A stretch of 50,519 nucleotides of DNA from Kordiimonadales bacterium (lineage in GTDB: Bacteria > Pseudomonadota > Alphaproteobacteria > Sphingomonadales > Kordiimonadaceae). The DNA is taken from positions 26,241 through 76,759 of the forward strand of contig NVTU01000010.1 of the NCBI GenBank assembly GCA_002401685.1, in the 5' to 3' direction. The notes below the pieces were generated by a model that searched no databases, was not told the origin of the DNA, and saw only the letters and a list, made by a program, of their open reading frames with translations. Positions 27,491 to 49,122 of the stretch are shown piece by piece. Position numbers and translations under genes: made by a program. Numbering within the stretch: position 1 is the stretch's first letter; every line of letters begins with the position of its first letter.

Positions 27491-29278
27491 ATGAGCGATA
27501 GCGGCATGCGGGAAGAACATCAGCCTCCAAAGGGGAAGCTGGTTAACCTAAGAACATTATGGACCTTTGTTGGCGTTTATAAGCTCCAACTTTTTTTAGC
27601 CACGGTCTTTTTGCTCATAGCCGCGACGACAGTTCTCATCTTGCCAACTGCCATCGGCAGGATAATTGACACCGCAAATAGCGGCGGCGGAGAAGATGGC
27701 GGACAAGGGATCGCGATATTTTTCACCACCATTATTCTTGTTATGGCTACCGCGACGGCGATGCGCTTCTATTTCGTTAGCTGGCTGGGAGAGCGGGTCG
27801 TGGCTGACATCCGTAAAGCAGTTTACGAGCGACTGATTACGCTATCCCCAGAATATTTTGAAGAAAATCGTCCCGGTGAAATTGTCTCCCGACTAACGGC
27901 AGACACCACCCTGGTGCAAACTATTGTTGGCTCCAGCTTCTCGGTTTGGGCGCGCAATATACTGATCGCGATTGGCGGCACCGGTTGGCTTCTCGTTACT
28001 GCGCCAGAGCAAATGCGCTACATGATCATCATTGTCCCGCCGATTTTGTTTTTCGTTGTATATATGGGCCGCCGGGTACGTAAATTATCTCGTTCCAGTC
28101 AGGATAAAGTTGCAGATGTAGGCGTAAGAGCCAACGAATCGCTTTCTGCTTTGAATATTGTGCAGGCATTCACGCAGGAAAAGTTCGAAAGCCGCCGTTT
28201 TGGTGTCCATGTTGACGATGCATTCGACGTTGCGAAACGCAGAATTAAAATTCGGGCAATTCTTACCTTTGTAATTATGTTCCTGGTATTTGCCGGCATC
28301 GCGGCCCTCATGTTTAACGGCCTACAAAGTGTGTCCACCGGCAAACTCAGCAGCGGCGAAATGACTACCTTCTTGATTCGGTCTATTTTCGTAGCCAGCT
28401 CGTTTGCGTCGCTCACAGAAGTCTATAGCGAGCTGCAGCGTGCAGCAGGTGCGGCTGGCCGTTTGGCCGAGCTGCTTACTGCAGAATCGACCATTAAGGC
28501 TCCTAAAAATCCTATCCCGTTGCCTAAAACTATGAAGGGCGACATTCACTTCGACCATGTTACGTTCCACTACCCGAGCAAAAAGAACATCGCCGCACTG
28601 ATAGATTTTGACCTGCATGTAAAACCCGGGGAAACTGTTGCTCTCGTCGGGCCGTCGGGCGCAGGTAAATCAACTGTGCTGCAACTGTTGCTGCGTTTTT
28701 ATGATCCGCAGAGCGGCTCGGTTACTATTGACGGCATTGATCTCTCCAAAACAGAGCCAACCGAATTCCGCAAACACATTGCGCTCGTGCCGCAGGACAC
28801 CATTATTTTTGCCGATTCTGTTGCAGAAAATATCCGCTATGGCCGGTTCGGTGCGTCAGATGAAGAAGTCCGCGCTGCAGCTGTCTCTGCAGAAGCGCTC
28901 GCTTTCATTGAAGATGCGCCGGAAGGATTTGATACTTTCCTCGGGGAACGCGGCACGCGCCTTTCTGGCGGCCAGCGCCAACGTATCGCAATCGCCCGCG
29001 GCATCCTGCGTGACGCGCCTATCTTGTTGCTCGACGAGGCTACAAGCGCCCTTGACGCCGAGAGCGAGCTTAGGGTGCAGGAAGCGCTCGAGCACCTGAT
29101 GGAAGGCCGTACAACGCTTGTAATCGCGCACCGACTGGCGACTGTTAAAAAAGTAGACCGCATTGTTGTGATGGATGGTGGCAGAATAGTTGCAGAGGGA
29201 ACGCACGATGAACTTGTCGCTCAAGGCGGGATATACAAAAGGCTGGCAGATTTGCAATTCGGCTCTAGCACGGCGTAG
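27491..29278 (+). CDS. ABCB-type ABC exporter, fused permease and ATPase
   Basis: A half-transporter of 595 residues that would act as a homodimer in the inner membrane. Residues about 30-320 form six helices, with the coupling-helix region GERVVADIRKAVYERL. The nucleotide-binding domain has Walker A GPSGAGKST, the signature LSGGQRQRIAIARG, Walker B ILLLDEAT and the H-loop IAHRLAT. This MsbA-like family near rpmE is common in alphaproteobacteria. The substrate is unknown; lipid or peptide export is possible. A sulfotransferase gene follows 45 bases later on the same strand. Confidence 0.95.
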   Translation: MSDSGMREEHQPPKGKLVNLRTLWTFVGVYKLQLFLATVFLLIAATTVLILPTAIGRIIDTANSGGGEDGGQGIAIFFTTIILVMATATAMRFYFVSWLGERVVADIRKAVYERLITLSPEYFEENRPGEIVSRLTADTTLVQTIVGSSFSVWARNILIAIGGTGWLLVTAPEQMRYMIIIVPPILFFVVYMGRRVRKLSRSSQDKVADVGVRANESLSALNIVQAFTQEKFESRRFGVHVDDAFDVAKRRIKIRAILTFVIMFLVFAGIAALMFNGLQSVSTGKLSSGEMTTFLIRSIFVASSFASLTEVYSELQRAAGAAGRLAELLTAESTIKAPKNPIPLPKTMKGDIHFDHVTFHYPSKKNIAALIDFDLHVKPGETVALVGPSGAGKSTVLQLLLRFYDPQSGSVTIDGIDLSKTEPTEFRKHIALVPQDTIIFADSVAENIRYGRFGASDEEVRAAAVSAEALAFIEDAPEGFDTFLGERGTRLSGGQRQRIAIARGILRDAPILLLDEATSALDAESELRVQEALEHLMEGRTTLVIAHRLATVKKVDRIVVMDGGRIVAEGTHDELVAQGGIYKRLADLQFGSSTA

Positions 29279-29323: not shown

Positions 29324-30124
29324 ATGGACCACACTTTGTTTCAAAAAATAAAATCATTGGTCTGGCCTGGAGCGAACATCACCCGGTGCATTGGCACGTA
29401 CCATAAAACCGGCTCCGTGTGGCTGCAGGGTATCTTCAGCGAACTTGCGGATGAACTAGGCCTCCAGTTCACTGAAGTCGAAATCGATACGCACCTAGCG
29501 CCAAGTGCTCTGAGTAACGCATTTATTTTCAATCATAGTACCCGGTTCCCCCCTACCATGTATGCCGAGCCAGTTTCTGGCGTGCGAATAATAAGAGACC
29601 CTCGCGACATGGTAATCTCAGCGGCGCATTACCATTGTTGGGCGCCGGAACCATGGCTTCATGCTGCGCAGGATTTATTTGGCGGCAAAAGTTATTGCGA
29701 GACCATCAAGTCTTTGGACACTGCGCAGGAAACATACAGTTTCGAAATGCGTAACACGACAAGCTACGTCATACGGCAGATGGTAAATTCAGACGGCGAC
29801 ACGGCTTTACATAATTTCGTCGACAAAAACTTCCTGACCATCCGCTACGAGGACCTAATAACTGACGCTGACTTAGTCGAAGTGAAAAAGATTTGCCGAC
29901 AGCTTAAGATTTCGCTCAAAAAGACGTCAGAGATATTCTTTAAAAAGTCACTATTTGGGCAGCAGAAGCCCGACGGCGAGCACATTCGGTCCGGTAAAAC
30001 ACAGCAGTGGAAAACAGCGTTTACCAAAAGTACCGCGGAAGATTTTGCAAGCCTACACCAGGCCTCTCTTGAAGCGCTGGGATATGAGACCGACGCCTCG
30101 TGGCTCGATCATTTTAAGAACTAA
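29324..30124 (+). CDS. PAPS-dependent sulfotransferase (Sulfotransfer_1)
   Basis: An intact 266-residue cytosolic sulfotransferase. The 5'-phosphosulfate loop is TYHKTGSVWLQG (about 25-36), the 3'-phosphate site is RIIRDPRDMVISA (about 87-99), and the C-terminal cofactor clamp is HIRSGKTQQWKTAFT. It transfers sulfate to an unknown hydroxyl acceptor, probably a glycan or lipid. The gene closely follows the ABC exporter, so export of a sulfated lipid is a possible but unproven link. No sulfate-activation genes are in the window. Confidence 0.88.
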   Translation: MDHTLFQKIKSLVWPGANITRCIGTYHKTGSVWLQGIFSELADELGLQFTEVEIDTHLAPSALSNAFIFNHSTRFPPTMYAEPVSGVRIIRDPRDMVISAAHYHCWAPEPWLHAAQDLFGGKSYCETIKSLDTAQETYSFEMRNTTSYVIRQMVNSDGDTALHNFVDKNFLTIRYEDLITDADLVEVKKICRQLKISLKKTSEIFFKKSLFGQQKPDGEHIRSGKTQQWKTAFTKSTAEDFASLHQASLEALGYETDASWLDHFKN

Positions 30125-37067: not shown

Positions 37068-38132
37068 TTACGCGCTAGCCATTGAATGGCCTTTTGAGCC
37101 AAGGTCATCAAACGCCTCATCAAGCCGCGTTACAAGTGCCTGTTCGCATTTACGCAGCCATGCCCGCGGGTCATATTGCTTTTTGAACGGCGTACCGGTT
37201 TCTGGGTGTACCTGCCATTTAAAGGCATCACTGTGTTCTCCCACATAAGCACCAATAGCTTCTGAGAAAGCAAACTGAGTATCGGTATCGATGTTCATTT
37301 TAAACACACCGTATCCGACAGCCTCTTCAATCTTGGCCTTTTCCGAACCAGAGCCACCGTGGAATACAAAATTCAGTGGGTTCGTTGCAGTGCTGCGCGC
37401 TGCCTGCACCATATCCTGAGACGCTTTCAAAATCTCAGGCCGCAGTTTCACGTTCCCCGGCTTATACACACCGTGCACATTACCAAAAGACGCTGCGACA
37501 GAAAAATGACCAAGCGGCATCAACAAGTCATACGCCTTCAAAACATCCTCAGGCTGGGTGTAAAGGCTAGGGTTTTCAAAATCGTCATCAACATCAGCGC
37601 CAACGCCGTCCTCTTCTCCGCCGGTAACACCGAGCTCAATCTCAAGGCTCATCCCCATAGGGGCCATATCTTTAAGAACCCGCGCACATGTATCCAAATT
37701 GAAATCGATATCTTCGCCAGACAGGTCAAGCATGTGAGAGCTATAAAGCGGAACACCTGTCTTCGCGATATTTTTGCGGCTCTCTTCAACCAAGGCCTCT
37801 ACCCATGGGATCAGCTTCTTATCTGCGTGGTCGGTATGAAGGATCGCGCAAATACCGTAATGTTCCGCCAGCAAATGCACATGCTGGGCAGCAGAAACCG
37901 CGCCAAGAACCTTCGCACCGAAGCCGTCTTCAAGACTTTTTCCGGCATAAAACTGTGCGCCGCTATTAGAAAATTGAATGATAACGTCGGAGCGATTTTT
38001 AGCGGCTGCTTCCATAACGGCGTTAATCGAATTTGTGCCAACGACATTGACGGCAGGCAAGGCAAAGCCTTTGGCTTTACTGTTTTCCACAAGGGCGGCG
38101 TAATCATCGCCGAACACAACACCTGGTTTCAT
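37068..38132 (-). CDS. fba: Class II fructose-bisphosphate aldolase
   Basis: Zinc-dependent aldolase splitting fructose-1,6-bisphosphate. It has 354 residues of the long class IIA type. Motifs are ALPAVNVVGTNSINAVMEAA, the zinc and catalytic site ILHTDHADKK, SLEIELGVTGGEEDGV and the phosphate loops FHGGSGS and NIDTDTQ. It has an ATG start. It is separated from pgk by the opposite-strand lipoprotein-kinase cassette. Confidence 0.96.
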   Translation of the reverse strand: MKPGVVFGDDYAALVENSKAKGFALPAVNVVGTNSINAVMEAAAKNRSDVIIQFSNSGAQFYAGKSLEDGFGAKVLGAVSAAQHVHLLAEHYGICAILHTDHADKKLIPWVEALVEESRKNIAKTGVPLYSSHMLDLSGEDIDFNLDTCARVLKDMAPMGMSLEIELGVTGGEEDGVGADVDDDFENPSLYTQPEDVLKAYDLLMPLGHFSVAASFGNVHGVYKPGNVKLRPEILKASQDMVQAARSTATNPLNFVFHGGSGSEKAKIEEAVGYGVFKMNIDTDTQFAFSEAIGAYVGEHSDAFKWQVHPETGTPFKKQYDPRAWLRKCEQALVTRLDEAFDDLGSKGHSMASA

Positions 38133-38260
38133 AATATTTTCCGTTTTTCCGGTTTATTGGGGCGCATAAACAGCGGCCAAACCCCGCATGTTCACGTTGT
38201 CTCTTTGATACACAAAGCAGTAAGCAAGAGCAACAAAAGTTGATGTATTCAAACCCAGTT

Positions 38261-38276
38261 TTAATCCATACTTAAC
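38261..38276 (+). promoter_or_regulatory. Perfect CtrA-type box
   Basis: TTAA-TCCATAC-TTAAC matches the full CtrA consensus TTAA-N7-TTAAC. It lies in the spacer between fba and the lipoprotein gene, 71 bases ahead of the GTG at 38,348. Either divergent gene could be controlled; position favours the sensory cassette. Confidence 0.55.
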
Positions 38277-38347
38277 AGATGATCAGTAAGCTCTGTCAAA
38301 GGTTTGGGGGATCAGCAACAAGGTCGCAAGAAAAGCGAGTTTTTAGA

Positions 38348-39334
38348 GTGACAAAAACGGGCCATCTGGGCGCAAAAATTTTGATGATGTTTAGCACCGT
38401 GGTCCTGCTAAGCTGTAACCCGCCACAGAAAGATTACCCTCTTCGTCTATCGACCAATTCCTGGGTTGGGTACGAGCCCTTTTACATAGCTGAAAGCATG
38501 GGGTATTTCTCCAAAGACGCTATCCATCTTATCGAAATGCCGTTTTCACTTACAATGGACCAATCGCTCCGGGCAGGCACGCTTGACGCCGCGGCCGTCT
38601 CCCTGAGCCGCGCCTTGTCCCTTGTTGGTGCCGGCCACGACATTACCGTTTTAATGATACTCAATTGGTCAAACGGCGCAGACCAATTGATCGCGCACCC
38701 CAGCATCAAATCTGTCGTTGACCTAAAAGGAAAAACCGTAGGGGCCGAAGAAAATACGGTAAACGGCTATTTGCTACAGCGCGCTTTGCAGATCAACGGC
38801 TTGTCAATCTCGGACATCACATTCAAACACACGCAAAACACCGACGTAGCGGACGCCTTTAGAGCAGGCGAGATTATGGCTGGTGCTGTCTACGGCGCAG
38901 AGATTCCCATACTTTTGAGTCTCGGAGCAAGGCCCATTTTCGACAGTTCAGACATTCCTGGTGAGATACTAGATGTCCTTATTGTCCGAACGCCTTACCT
39001 CGAGCAAAACCCAGACAAAATAGAACAGCTTATTCTAGCTTGGTTTAAAGGGGTAGACCACCTGAAGCACATCGCAGCAGGTGCAAAAAGGCCTATTGGC
39101 CTTATGTCCGACAAGGCTTTTAAGGCGGCGATCAGGCAGATTAAGTTTGCCTCAATCATAGACAATACGGATTTCCTCCAGAATACTGCCAAAAAGTTAG
39201 AAGCGTTGATCAACCTACGCTTAGCGCTCACCAACAGCTTAGGCATAAGCCGTGAACGCAGCAGAACCAGCCAAACAAAGCCGCTCATAAATTCCGTACC
39301 TTTTTTTGATGCCATCAGTAAGGTAGGAGAGTAA
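38348..39334 (+). CDS. Substrate-binding lipoprotein (NMT1/SsuA-like)
   Basis: A predicted lipoprotein of about 328 residues from the GTG at 38,348; the frame is open to 38,279, which lies against the CtrA-type box. The lipobox VVLLSC puts the lipidated Cys at about residue 23. The mature part is a periplasmic binding protein of the nitrate/taurine/thiamine-precursor type: STNSWVGYEPFYIAESMGYF, VDLKGKTVGAEENT and DAFRAGEIMAGAVYGAE. No permease or ATPase gene is adjacent. The stop shares a base with the kinase start (TAATG), so it probably presents a ligand to that kinase rather than to a transporter. Confidence 0.88.
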   Translation: MTKTGHLGAKILMMFSTVVLLSCNPPQKDYPLRLSTNSWVGYEPFYIAESMGYFSKDAIHLIEMPFSLTMDQSLRAGTLDAAAVSLSRALSLVGAGHDITVLMILNWSNGADQLIAHPSIKSVVDLKGKTVGAEENTVNGYLLQRALQINGLSISDITFKHTQNTDVADAFRAGEIMAGAVYGAEIPILLSLGARPIFDSSDIPGEILDVLIVRTPYLEQNPDKIEQLILAWFKGVDHLKHIAAGAKRPIGLMSDKAFKAAIRQIKFASIIDNTDFLQNTAKKLEALINLRLALTNSLGISRERSRTSQTKPLINSVPFFDAISKVGE

Positions 39335-41283
39335 TGCTGAAAAACATGTCCCTCCGCCATCTAGTTCCTCTGATGTTTTTAGCAGGCAGCCTACTGCTCG
39401 TGGTTTTCTTCTACCTACTTGGCTTTCCTGCAGCACAAGAAGCGGCCAAGGAGCTCAGTAAACAGGAAACGTATAATACTATATTGGCACAGCAGAGCCG
39501 CTTCATTGAGCTATTGATACAGAATGATCCGGACAAGCTTTCAAAGGAAATCTACTTCATCAACACAGATCCCGACCTCGAACGCATGATCATTGTCGAC
39601 GAGAACCAGCTCATTCTCTATGCAAATCGGTCACGCCTTGTTGGGGTTCACCTTAAAGACAGCGAGATTAACACAGGGAAGTTCCCAATCCCTTTCCCTG
39701 AAAACCAGATCAACGACATTATTCTAATCGATGCCCCAGAAAACAGCACCCTTATAAGCGGTTTAGCGCCGCTGCGGTATAGACGCGGGAGTGAAACCTT
39801 TAACCGAACTCTCATTATCGTGCGGGACTATGCCCCGTTAGCCACGGCAATTACTGACATCGCTGCTATCCCCTCAAAATTGCTAGCAACGGTGATGCTC
39901 ATGCTTTCGATATTGGCCGTTTTACTGCTGCACTTCCATTTGGGCCGCCGACTGGGCCCGCTGCTTCTCGCAGCTGCCAACTTGGCAAAAGGCACCAATG
40001 GTGCGCGCGCTAAACTTGGCGGCTCTGACGAATTTGCCCAAATTGGCCGTGCATTCGACATGATGGCCGAACGCATTGAGATAAAACGCGAAGGCCTAGA
40101 AAAAGCGATGGCCGAAGCTGAAAAAGGCAGTGATGCCAAGAACAAATTCCTCGGATATATGAGCCATGAAATACAGACACCTTTATCGGGTGTCCTGGGC
40201 TTCGTCGATCTGTTGAAAGAGACCGAGCTGAATGATGAATCGCGCCTATATGTGCGCTCTCTAGAAAGCGCTTCCCGAACACTTTCCGGATTGATAGGGG
40301 ATTTACTTGAAACCAGCCGGCTGGAAGCCGGTACCGTTAAACCCGTCAGTGAAACGTTTTGTCTCAATAGCCTGCTTCAGGAAATCCTAGACTCTGTTCT
40401 ACCTCGATCAATGCAAAAAGGCCTCAGCGTTAGGGTCATCAGTAATGAAAACGAACCAATTTGGCTCGAAAGCGATCAAAGTTTATTCCGGCAAATCCTC
40501 CTGAATTTGCTTGGCAACGCTGTGCAGTTCACAGAAGAGGGTCAAATCACCATTGCTATCTCTTCTTATCCTGTCCTAGGCAATGTAACAGCGCTGTCAA
40601 TCAGCGTTATAGACACCGGCATCGGCATTGCCCCTGACGAGATTTCGAAATTGTTTGAGCGCTTTTACAGATCGGTCGACAGCCGAGCACAGGCAAAGCC
40701 AGGATCCGGCGTGGGGCTTTCGATTTGCCGCGAGCTCGCGCAGCTTCTAGGGGGTGACATCACCATTGAAAGTGAACTTGACCAAGGATCAACCTTCACC
40801 TTCAATATTGAGGTGCCTGGTTCCAAGCGTCCCGATGACCAAAACTACACGGCTTTGTGGCAGCGCGAACAGCTTTCACAGAATGTGCTACTGGTTGAAA
40901 ATTCCGAAATAACCAGAAACTTGATTACCAGCATTCTCAGTAAATGGGGCCACAACGTCCGTACTTGCTCCAACGGGATCGACGCCATTCAGGTTATGAA
41001 AGACCAACTTATTTATCCGGACAGCAAACCCATTAGCCTTGTTATACTAGATCTCCATTTAGCTGGGCTGGACGGCTTTGAGACGGTCCTCGAAATCCGT
41101 GGCCTCGACAGTAATTACGAATGTCTGCCAATCATTGCGACAACCACGCAAAAAGAAAAAGACGTGAAGGAGCGCTGCCTAAACAGTGGCTTTGACGGCT
41201 TTATCGGCAAGCCGGTTGACCGCAAGAAAATGGCGGAAGAAGTCTTCCGCCTAACCAGACTGGCAACAAGAAAAGCTGGGTAA
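39334..41283 (+). CDS. Hybrid histidine kinase
   Basis: A membrane sensor of 649 residues. Helix 1 is at about 11-30. A periplasmic sensor domain of about 150 residues follows (Cache-like by layout), then helix 2 at about 182-202 and a HAMP segment. HisKA has His278 in SHEIQTPLSG. The ATPase domain has NLLGNAVQFTEEG, DTGIGI and GSGVGLSI. A C-terminal receiver carries Asp573 (LVILDLHL) and Lys626 (GKP). In the receiver the usual acidic pair ED is Glu522-Asn523, so metal binding may be weaker. No response regulator or Hpt gene is adjacent. It overlaps the lipoprotein gene by one base. Confidence 0.95.
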   Translation: MLKNMSLRHLVPLMFLAGSLLLVVFFYLLGFPAAQEAAKELSKQETYNTILAQQSRFIELLIQNDPDKLSKEIYFINTDPDLERMIIVDENQLILYANRSRLVGVHLKDSEINTGKFPIPFPENQINDIILIDAPENSTLISGLAPLRYRRGSETFNRTLIIVRDYAPLATAITDIAAIPSKLLATVMLMLSILAVLLLHFHLGRRLGPLLLAAANLAKGTNGARAKLGGSDEFAQIGRAFDMMAERIEIKREGLEKAMAEAEKGSDAKNKFLGYMSHEIQTPLSGVLGFVDLLKETELNDESRLYVRSLESASRTLSGLIGDLLETSRLEAGTVKPVSETFCLNSLLQEILDSVLPRSMQKGLSVRVISNENEPIWLESDQSLFRQILLNLLGNAVQFTEEGQITIAISSYPVLGNVTALSISVIDTGIGIAPDEISKLFERFYRSVDSRAQAKPGSGVGLSICRELAQLLGGDITIESELDQGSTFTFNIEVPGSKRPDDQNYTALWQREQLSQNVLLVENSEITRNLITSILSKWGHNVRTCSNGIDAIQVMKDQLIYPDSKPISLVILDLHLAGLDGFETVLEIRGLDSNYECLPIIATTTQKEKDVKERCLNSGFDGFIGKPVDRKKMAEEVFRLTRLATRKAG

Positions 41284-41291
41284 CCAGAAAC

Positions 41292-42494
41292 TCAGCCCTG
41301 GTTGTCCAAGGCCTTAACGCCTGGAAGCTCCCGGCCTTCCATCCACTCGAGGAAGGCACCGCCCGCAGTAGATATATGGGTAAAGCTGTCTTTGGCCCCG
41401 GCGTGCGCCAGCGCGGCAACCGTATCTCCGCCGCCTGCAACACTAAGAAGCTTTCCGTCATCAGTAAGTGCTGCAGCAGCTTTTGCCAAAGCGACGGTTG
41501 CCATATCAAACGGCTCCATTTCAAATGCGCCCATTGGGCCATTCCAGACCAGCGTTTTGCATTCTGCCAATACGCCTGCCAGGGTTTCAACCGTGGCAGG
41601 ACCAGCATCAAGGATCATCTCACCGTCCGCAACATCTGTAGCGGCTTTGGTTTCATTTGCAGCGTGGGCTTTAAATTCACGCGCGACAACAACATCGCTC
41701 GGCAAATGTATCTGGCATCCCGAGGCGTCTGCAGCTGCCGTAATTTTAAGCGCTGTATCCTTTAGATCTTTTTCGCAAAGGCTGGCACCAATATTATGAC
41801 CCATAGCAAATAGGAAGGTGTTGGCCATTCCGCCGCCAATGATCAGATGATCAACTTTCGCTACCAAATTCTCCAACACAGCCAGCTTAGAGGAAACTTT
41901 CGCGCCGCCCACCACCGCCACGACCGGCTTTTTAGGAGCACCTAGGGCATTGTCCAGGGCAATCAGCTCAGCACTCATGGTTTCGCCCGCTGCCGAAGGA
42001 AGCAATTTCGCAATCGCCTCAGTCGACGCATGCGCCCGGTGTGCGCACGAAAACGCATCATTGATATAGACGTCACCAAGCTTGGCAAACCGCGCAGCGA
42101 GGGCTGCGTCATTTGTCTCTTCACCCGCGAAAAAGCGTGTATTTTCCATGATCATCACAGACTTAAACGGAAAAGGCCACGCGCCGCTCGCTTCATACTC
42201 ATTAAAAGCCTGGCTGGTGATAAATCCAACATCCTGGCCCAGCACCTGAGCGAGCGCAGGCACAACTGGCTCTAGCGATAAGTCCGCCACGATTTGGCCT
42301 TTTGGCCGCCCGAAATGCGCCAGTAAAACGGCCTTGCCGCCAGCCGCGATAACCGCGTCTACGGTCGGCTTCACCGCTTGCAGCCGTGTATCATCCCGCA
42401 CAGCCCCGTCCACCATTGGCACGTTAAGGTCAACGCGGATCACCGCCGTTTTGTTGGTGAGGTCGCCTAAGTCTGAAATACGGTTGAAAGCCAC
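41292..42494 (-). CDS. pgk: Phosphoglycerate kinase
   Basis: Makes ATP from 1,3-bisphosphoglycerate in glycolysis. It has 400 residues from the GTG at 42,494, which follows AGGAA; the frame open further upstream is non-coding. Motifs are [34 protein letters not shown] and the nucleotide site [11 protein letters not shown]. The gene lies downstream of gap on the same strand, with a hairpin terminator between them. Its 3' end is nine bases from the end of the convergent kinase gene. Confidence 0.97.
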
Positions 42495-42519
42495 GGAATT
42501 TCCTAAATTAATGGAGTAT

Positions 42520-42547
42520 AAAAAAGGGCAGCCCAATGAGCTGCCCT
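42520..42547 (-). terminator. Hairpin terminator or attenuator between gap and pgk
   Basis: AGGGCAGC and GCTGCCCT pair around a 7-base loop. On the - strand the stem is followed by six T. It lies after the gap stop and before the pgk start, so it would reduce read-through from gap into pgk. Confidence 0.8.
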
Positions 42548-48444: not shown

Positions 48445-49122
48445 ATGCCCATTCTTCGTAAAAATGACCGAAAACTTTATTTTGCCCATATTCCCAAAAC
48501 TGCGGGTTCTTCGCTTTATTGGTGGTTATTGCAAAACAACTGGCAAATCGCAAATTTTGGTGGTGCCTGTAGCCGCGACAGGCCAGTGCGAGCAGACACT
48601 ATATTCCGCAAAGAATTTGGTATTGCCTATTTTCAGCATGAAGGTGACCACAGCACCCTTACAACCAGCCCGCAACATGCCCCAGCTGACATTTGGCAAA
48701 CTTGGGGCCCGTTTGACCAGTCCTTTGCTATCGTGCGGGAACCCATTGCTCGGTTCCGCTCAGCAATTTGCTATTCCTACGATCGCTTTATAAATCGCCA
48801 CAAGTTTGACAATAACATTGCCACGCTGACAAAATTTCGCGAGGAGGCTCTTAATCGCCTGGTAACGGTCATTGAGAAACAGCCAAATATGGCTGACAAC
48901 CACTTTTTGCCGCAACAGTGTTTTATAACAGACCAGACTAAGCTTTATTTCTTTGACCAAGACTGGGTTAGCCAGATAGGCAACGACCTGGGTCTTTCCG
49001 GCGAAATTGCCCACATGAATAAATCCAATCTGAAAATTGAGCTGACAGAACCTGAACTGCGTTTTGCCGAAGAACACTTTCAAAATGATATTCGCTGGTA
49101 TGCTGATCTCCGCGCAGAATGA
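48445..49122 (+). CDS. Sulfotransferase family 2-like protein
   Basis: A 225-residue sulfotransferase. The PAPS loop is YFAHIPKTAGSSLYWWLL and the 3'-phosphate site is FAIVREPIARFRSAI. These match Sulfotransfer_2-type enzymes, which modify carbohydrate chains. It has no membrane helix. Downstream come the relic of a glycosyltransferase on the other strand and an FkbM methyltransferase, so it is probably part of a surface-glycan locus. It differs in type from the sulfotransferase at 29,324. Confidence 0.85.
   Translation: MPILRKNDRKLYFAHIPKTAGSSLYWWLLQNNWQIANFGGACSRDRPVRADTIFRKEFGIAYFQHEGDHSTLTTSPQHAPADIWQTWGPFDQSFAIVREPIARFRSAICYSYDRFINRHKFDNNIATLTKFREEALNRLVTVIEKQPNMADNHFLPQQCFITDQTKLYFFDQDWVSQIGNDLGLSGEIAHMNKSNLKIELTEPELRFAEEHFQNDIRWYADLRAE

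Follow-up and report, generated by a model that had tools for sequence, protein, structure and literature searches.

A solute-binding lipoprotein gene overlapping a hybrid histidine kinase gene between pgk and fba: a likely ligand-sensing pair in a Kordiimonadales bacterium

The DNA analysed here, called the window below, is a stretch of 50,519 nucleotides from a Kordiimonadales bacterium (contig NVTU01000010.1, positions 26,241 to 76,759) in which the gene of a solute-binding lipoprotein runs directly into that of a hybrid histidine kinase. Both genes lie on the + strand and are flanked by fba (37068-38132) and pgk (41292-42536), both on the - strand. The lipoprotein stop codon TAA (39332-39334) gives its last A to the kinase ATG, the kinase stop lies 8 bases from the end of pgk, tail to tail, and fba lies upstream of the pair on the opposite strand. 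An initial annotation of the bare sequence had already described the one-base TAATG overlap, the position between pgk and fba on the opposite strand and the lack of a permease gene beside the pair, and the sequence, open reading frames and coordinates bear out all three. No permease gene adjoins the pair in the window, and an exporter-like ATP-binding cassette (ABC) protein, recognized by eye, is encoded about 9 kb away at 27491-29278. The features of the locus are as follows.

38261-38276, + strand: CtrA-type box TTAA-N7-TTAAC, reading TTAATCCATACTTAAC, 87 bases upstream of the probable lipoprotein start codon
38348-39334, + strand: gene of an NMT1-type solute-binding lipoprotein (PF09084), GTG start preferred, with a longer frame from ATG 38279
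38348-38416, + strand: signal peptide up to the lipidation cysteine (lipobox LLSC, Cys23), read from the sequence
39332-39336, + strand: TAATG stop/start overlap, read from the sequence
39334-41283, + strand: gene of a hybrid histidine kinase of 649 aa (open reading frame and Pfam)
39424-39876, + strand: putative extracytoplasmic sensor region, bounded by two membrane helices that were assigned by eye, the proposed docking surface for the lipoprotein
39946-40080, + strand: HAMP domain (Pfam, 25.7 bits, cut-off 25)
40135-40332, + strand: HisKA domain with His278 in SHEIQTP (Pfam and alignment)
40474-40815, + strand: HATPase_c domain (Pfam, 103.1 bits)
40885-41244, + strand: receiver domain (Response_reg) with Glu522-Asn523 and the phospho-acceptor Asp573 (Pfam and alignment)

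The upstream gene encodes a member of the NMT1 family (PF09084; 53.1 bits against a Pfam cut-off of 20.5). Its start is likely GTG 38348 rather than ATG 38279, because the former opens a signal with lipobox LLSC and Cys23 and the latter lies just two bases past the CtrA-type box. Cys23 is invariant in nine aligned lipoprotein rows, an alignment with 25 invariant positions. The best NCBIfam match, TIGR03427 ABC_peri_uca, scores 105.3 bits and stays below its equivalog cut-off of 333.9, the SsuA family TIGR01728 gives 97.3 bits at a subfamily cut-off of 163.5, and a profile search of the PDB with the lipoprotein alignment placed SsuA, TauA and nitrate-type proteins on top.

The downstream gene encodes a hybrid histidine kinase by domain content, with HAMP, HisKA, HATPase_c and Response_reg each above the Pfam cut-off and with His278 and Asp573 as phospho-acceptors. 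Its first ~200 residues, including the two membrane helices, match no Pfam family, and a PDB profile search started from the sensor alignment matched nothing convincingly in the extracytoplasmic portion; its two best matches fall in the HAMP region, at E ~0.001. The receiver reads LLVENS, with Glu522-Asn523 in place of the usual two acids and with Asp573 and the Lys of GKP retained, and the canonical acidic pair for the metal ion is therefore incomplete in the window. The asparagine pointed out by the initial annotation is thus real, and in the other members of the genus that carry the pair (G008, G012 and G016) the two positions read EH, with histidine as the second residue. Kinases of the same pair elsewhere in the family read EA (G024) or ED or DD (G020, G027 and G025), so that loss of the second acid is common to the genus members with the pair and to G024. 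We infer from these residues that metal binding by the receiver may be weaker.

We searched 147 relatives with the lipoprotein at E <= 1e-20 and found it in 16 genomes including its own, nine of which belong to the window's family f1 (29 genomes, 27 with pgk). An orthologous pair is present in 8 of the 29 f1 genomes and the kinase is the next gene after the lipoprotein in every one of them. In seven of these (the window, G008, G012, G016, G020, G027 and G024) the pair adjoins pgk on its fba or thiE side, and in G025 it is found past tkt, at a distance of about 4.6 kb. The ninth lipoprotein-carrying f1 genome, G003, has a different PAS kinase next to the lipoprotein gene, again with overlapping genes, and we rejected it as a member of the cassette clade, outside of which it falls in the tree. 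All seven matches from family f5 have an ABC-ATPase-like stretch within 2 kb.

Nineteen f1 genomes have pgk and lack the pair. In 12 of them pgk and a class-II fba adjoin on one strand, 107 to 302 bases apart; the stretches fetched from the other seven hold no class-II fba. On a gap/pgk/tkt tree of the family the pair needs at least six gains or losses, compared to a mean of 7.0 changes after shuffling (126 of 500 shuffles were as low). Presence at the same site combined with this scattered distribution fits an old resident that was lost several times, a pattern that exchange through conserved flanks would mimic. The initial annotation had the pair cutting through the glycolysis block: its position between pgk and fba stands, and a fresh insertion does not, because the pair occupies the same site in three genera (g1, g3 and g7). 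For a glycolytic role we found nothing in favour beyond position.

Several observations concern the flanks of this site. Between the lipoprotein gene and thiE of G012 (L019) there is no class-II fba and a frame reads by eye as a class-I type aldolase; fba seems to have been displaced there while the cassette stayed. L020 and L024 likewise give no class-II fba match. At 38205-38216 the window reads TTGATACACAAA (TTTGTGTATCAA on the fba strand), an element that also lies upstream of the lipoprotein gene in G008, G012, G016, G020 and G027 and, whole or in shorter forms (GTGTATCA), upstream of fba in several cassette-less genomes. It probably belongs to the promoter of the aldolase gene itself or serves as a binding site for a regulator.

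Beyond the family, a class-wide search with a profile of the sensor region matched 236 of 385 genomes at E <= 1e-6, most of the listed matches covering its HAMP end only. We opened nine of the sensor loci outside the family: in four (G386, G261, G419 C236 and G511 C17) the kinase is directly preceded by the gene of an NMT1-like lipoprotein, in four there is none and one (G511 C7) gave no call; a second G419 locus (C97) is outside these nine. The three best-scoring matches that start before profile position 100 (G386, G261 and G511 C17) all have the upstream lipoprotein. Conversely, a class-wide search with a profile of 11 lipoprotein rows (A3), each of them kinase-linked, matched 63 of 385 genomes at E <= 1e-25, and 20 further loci were opened. 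Seven of these have a signalling gene downstream (two kinases, two GGDEF-EAL proteins, two PAS-EAL proteins and one adenylate/guanylate cyclase), 11 have a permease gene (by eye) and two (G232 and G526) have no clear class. Above 200 bits nine of nine matches are signalling-linked, counting the window's own and three already known, and both kinds occur below.

Across the phylum, the lipoprotein search gave 80 places in 68 of 398 genomes at E <= 1e-45. Among the 40 that we opened, mainly the best-scoring ones, Pfam scans found 36 signalling genes directly downstream versus four ABC permeases, a share that should not be carried over to all 80 places, as the unopened ones are mostly weaker and two of them (G410 and G182) are permease-linked according to the class-wide search. 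The 36 partners comprise 30 kinases, four GGDEF or EAL proteins and two PAS proteins whose frame, as read, shows no output domain. Where gene spacing was measured, 33 of 35 signalling pairs overlap or lie at most 15 bases apart, including 15 four-base overlaps and three one-base overlaps as in the window. Five partners (L256, L260, L262, L269 and L270) themselves begin with a phosphonate-binding-type domain, so that two binding domains may feed one sensor.

A tree of 76 binding-protein rows (54 signalling-linked, 21 transporter-linked and one unlabelled; G313, G232 and G016, a near-copy of G012, were left out) separates the two kinds. The label needs three changes, compared to a mean of 18.6 after shuffling (0 of 500 shuffles as low), and 52 of the 54 signalling rows fall on one side together with the unlabelled row, at a Shimodaira-Hasegawa-like approximate likelihood ratio test (SH-aLRT) value of 86, which is not a starred branch. 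A single origin of this side is suggested rather than proved, because the tree was made with a quick method, has no known root and includes several long rows. The lipidation cysteine is present in 88% of 52 signalling-side rows versus 7 of 21 transport rows, and Glu134 in 98% versus 3 of 21. Within the transporter side, the NMT1-type gene of L192 (G153) neighbours that of an adenylate/guanylate cyclase containing HAMP and PAS, possibly an independent recruitment.

Both sides of the tree have the motifs DxSxGxD and PxxIxD. As these pocket-type motifs also occur in transporter relatives such as that of G044, in which urea carboxylase and its associated protein are confirmed beside the lipoprotein homologue, and that of G410, which has an agmatinase-type ureohydrolase as neighbour, the ligand might, at a weak guess, be a small amino, guanidino or urea-like compound. 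A thiamine precursor was considered in view of the adjacent thiE and the family name NMT1/THI5, and found no support.

The sensor region is also found with a second kind of partner. Across 14 homologues it is 20-52% identical to that of the window. Family f1 holds seven further, weaker matches (E 1e-13 to 1e-10), all aligning as hybrid kinases with ED or DD as receiver pair. In 7 of 7 (L058-L064) the divergent neighbour gene encodes a secreted protein of ~260 residues, of one family that is not the NMT1 lipoprotein. Two of the seven secreted proteins reach SBP_bac_3 (best E 0.002; one scores 18.1 bits where the cut-off is 26.4), a profile comparison of their family with the lipoproteins gave a probability of 41% (E 0.0003, 97 columns) and no solved structure matches. 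On account of these weak matches and the missing structural match we call the family weakly binding-protein-like and not a binding protein. Divergent pairing of the same sensor type with such a gene would support ligand sensing.

The initial annotation had also suggested that the sensor may be under cell-cycle control. The CtrA-type box in front of it is present at 38261-38276, and a rather unlikely alternative is that this is a chance match and that the pair is not cell-cycle controlled. Taken alone, the box in the window is indeed not significant (0.34 matches expected; 27 of 100 shuffles of the 50.5 kb contain one or more), and genome-wide the CtrA-type pattern is not enriched, with 20 matches versus 33 of the reversed control. 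The box is also absent from the four cassettes of three other genera (G020, G027, G024 and G025). Against a chance match, TTAA-N7-TTAA stands upstream of the lipoprotein gene in all four cassettes of the genus, at -87 in the window, -85 in G008, -85 in G012 and in the near-copy G016, positions counted from start codons that were partly chosen after seeing this spacing. The spacer and flanks of the box differ between the window, G008 and G012. Each of these upstream regions has a box in just 30-34 of 2000 shuffles, so that three matches by chance would come at ~4e-6 if independent. Moreover, 0 of 12 cassette-less pgk-fba gaps have the box, and the genome encodes a CtrA homologue that is 76% identical to the Caulobacter sequence used as query, a match that points to an alphaproteobacterium. 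Two features expected of a CtrA regulon, a conserved box and CtrA in the genome, are thus present, the box within one genus only. The box gains weight by its conservation across the genus cassettes, and the sequences favour CtrA control within the genus only. As a separate observation, six CtrA-type places of the window's own genome, G000 (C7:35562, C8:2412, C8:9469, C14:49830, C23:53700 and C50:62870) are perfect dyads GTTAA-N6-TTAAC in which both strands match one base apart.

Searches of the genome that carries the lipoprotein gave two NMT1-type proteins and five permease matches. One permease, resembling the taurine/nitrate type though below NCBIfam cut-offs, shares its operon with an ATPase and an NMT1-type binding protein of its own, and the other four belong to Pst-like and sugar-type operons, as read by eye from lists of open reading frames. 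None of the five is an unpaired permease of the lipoprotein's type, and the cognate permease or ATPase elsewhere that the initial annotation had set beforehand as speaking against its proposal was not found within this 77%-complete assembly.

Based on the conserved pairing, the side of the tree on which the binding protein falls and the lack of a free permease of its type in the 77%-complete assembly, we consider it likely that the lipoprotein acts as a receptor for a ligand, docking on the adjacent kinase and reporting to it; as far as comparison reaches, it favours the ligand-sensing pair of the initial annotation. An exported binding protein gene adjoining a membrane kinase gene, kept in eight genomes of the family, is also one of the features expected of receptors of the binding-protein/sensor-kinase type, of which the pair looks like a new branch. 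The lipoprotein, presumably anchored at the inner membrane, would dock on the extracytoplasmic domain of the kinase, and ligand binding would close its NMT1-type lobes and change the docked complex (both ligand control and the direction of the effect are what we infer). The signal would then pass through the membrane helices and HAMP to His278, from where the phosphoryl group would move within the protein to Asp573 and on to a phosphotransfer partner or regulator.

Several points weigh against such a receptor. Asn106 of the window's lipoprotein replaces the first Asp of the pocket-type motif shared by both sides of the tree, and the tree puts two signalling rows on the transporter side, G577 and, nested among the transporters, the cyclase-linked G153. 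The 11 permease-linked loci of the class-wide search, all below 190 bits, make up over half of the 20 opened, and loci were picked by their scores against a profile whose rows are all kinase-linked, a choice that biases them toward a signalling result. Single-sequence structure models were unusable, with a mean predicted local distance difference test score (pLDDT) of 42.6 for the sensor region and a pLDDT of 35.4 for the second model. The assembly, of 2.68 Mb, may be missing a permease. Finally, adjacency may be misleading: the binding proteins that neighbour AgtS and AruS of Pseudomonas aeruginosa showed no role in activation (PMC11113362).

These last points would suit a lipoprotein that serves an ABC transporter encoded elsewhere and whose position next to the kinase does no more than couple the expression of uptake and regulation: kinase-adjacent binding proteins need not act on their kinase (PMC11113362), the pocket-type motifs are common to transport relatives and the assembly is incomplete. 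We nevertheless regard this as improbable, given that the sole taurine/nitrate-type permease found has its own binding protein alongside and that 36 of 40 opened related loci have a signalling gene and no permease directly downstream. About as improbable, in our estimate, is a kinase that senses the signal itself while the lipoprotein merely sharpens or tunes it, or recognizes the state of the cell envelope instead of a small molecule, for although CuaS seems responsive to cellobiose without CuaD, if less well (PMC10384115), and the pocket motif is altered (N106), the sensor region is strongly divergent (20-52%) compared to the 25 invariant lipoprotein positions.

Returning to the lipoprotein as a receptor for its kinase, a broader proposal can be put forward tentatively, with slightly less than even confidence: a large branch of NMT1-type lipoproteins in the phylum may have left transport to become a plug-in receptor for kinases, GGDEF/EAL and PAS-EAL proteins, and in this genus one such receptor kinase may in addition have come under CtrA control, so that a gene pair within the tkt-gap-pgk-fba block would couple a nutrient-like signal to the cell cycle.

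The usual annotation of a binding protein is as a component of a transporter. In TorT-TorS and LuxP-LuxQ, a periplasmic binding protein reports to a hybrid kinase, and the models of TorS and LuxQ belong to the five highest-scoring NCBIfam matches of the window kinase, which however reaches only 282.6 of the 676.5 bits of the TorS equivalog cut-off (TIGR02956) and 225.3 of the 1200 bits for LuxQ, in both cases with the kinase core only. TorT and LuxP also belong to a different binding-protein family than the window's lipoprotein. The polyamine receptor NspS-MbaA, with GGDEF/EAL output, is similar in combining a binding protein with a membrane enzyme of cyclic di-GMP (c-di-GMP) metabolism, and several NMT1 relatives are paired with GGDEF/EAL proteins; NspS itself is of another binding-protein family than NMT1. 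The urea-carboxylase-linked ABC binding proteins of TIGR03427 share DxSxGxD and PxxIxD with the window's lipoprotein but differ in score and setting, the true member of G044 reaching 526 bits and sitting with urea carboxylase and ABC genes.

CuaDSR of Ruminiclostridium cellulolyticum is alike in that the gene of a lipidated solute-binding protein, apart from the transport binding protein, adjoins a membrane kinase gene, and unlike in that its own operon has a separate regulator gene, whereas the window has a hybrid kinase and its pair lies between fba and pgk. It provides experimental precedent as well, since the lipoprotein CuaD binds its adjacent kinase and improves sensing (PMC10384115). 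According to a 2022 census, about 10 cases of kinase activation by binding proteins are characterized, and 13 of 22 families of binding proteins have a known action on some sort of receptor (PMC9602780); NMT1 may be one of these families. Of the 27 Pfam families in the PBP clan, SBP_bac_3 alone had been studied in c-di-GMP networks according to a 2022 review (PMC8846402). Our literature search found no title or abstract opening describing NMT1 proteins paired with kinases or c-di-GMP enzymes, which is not a claim that they are absent from print. If true, a branch with a near-constant sensor neighbour would turn many annotated "ABC substrate-binding proteins" into receptors, and it would offer a single family for testing how one type of receptor is coupled to different outputs.

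Two minor observations lie apart from the pair. At L278 1157-5318, the sole taurine/nitrate-like ABC operon found, a 453-residue protein of no NCBIfam family adjoins the permease. In the window itself, 29324-30124 and 48445-49122 encode two predicted proteins that appear sulfotransferase-like by eye.

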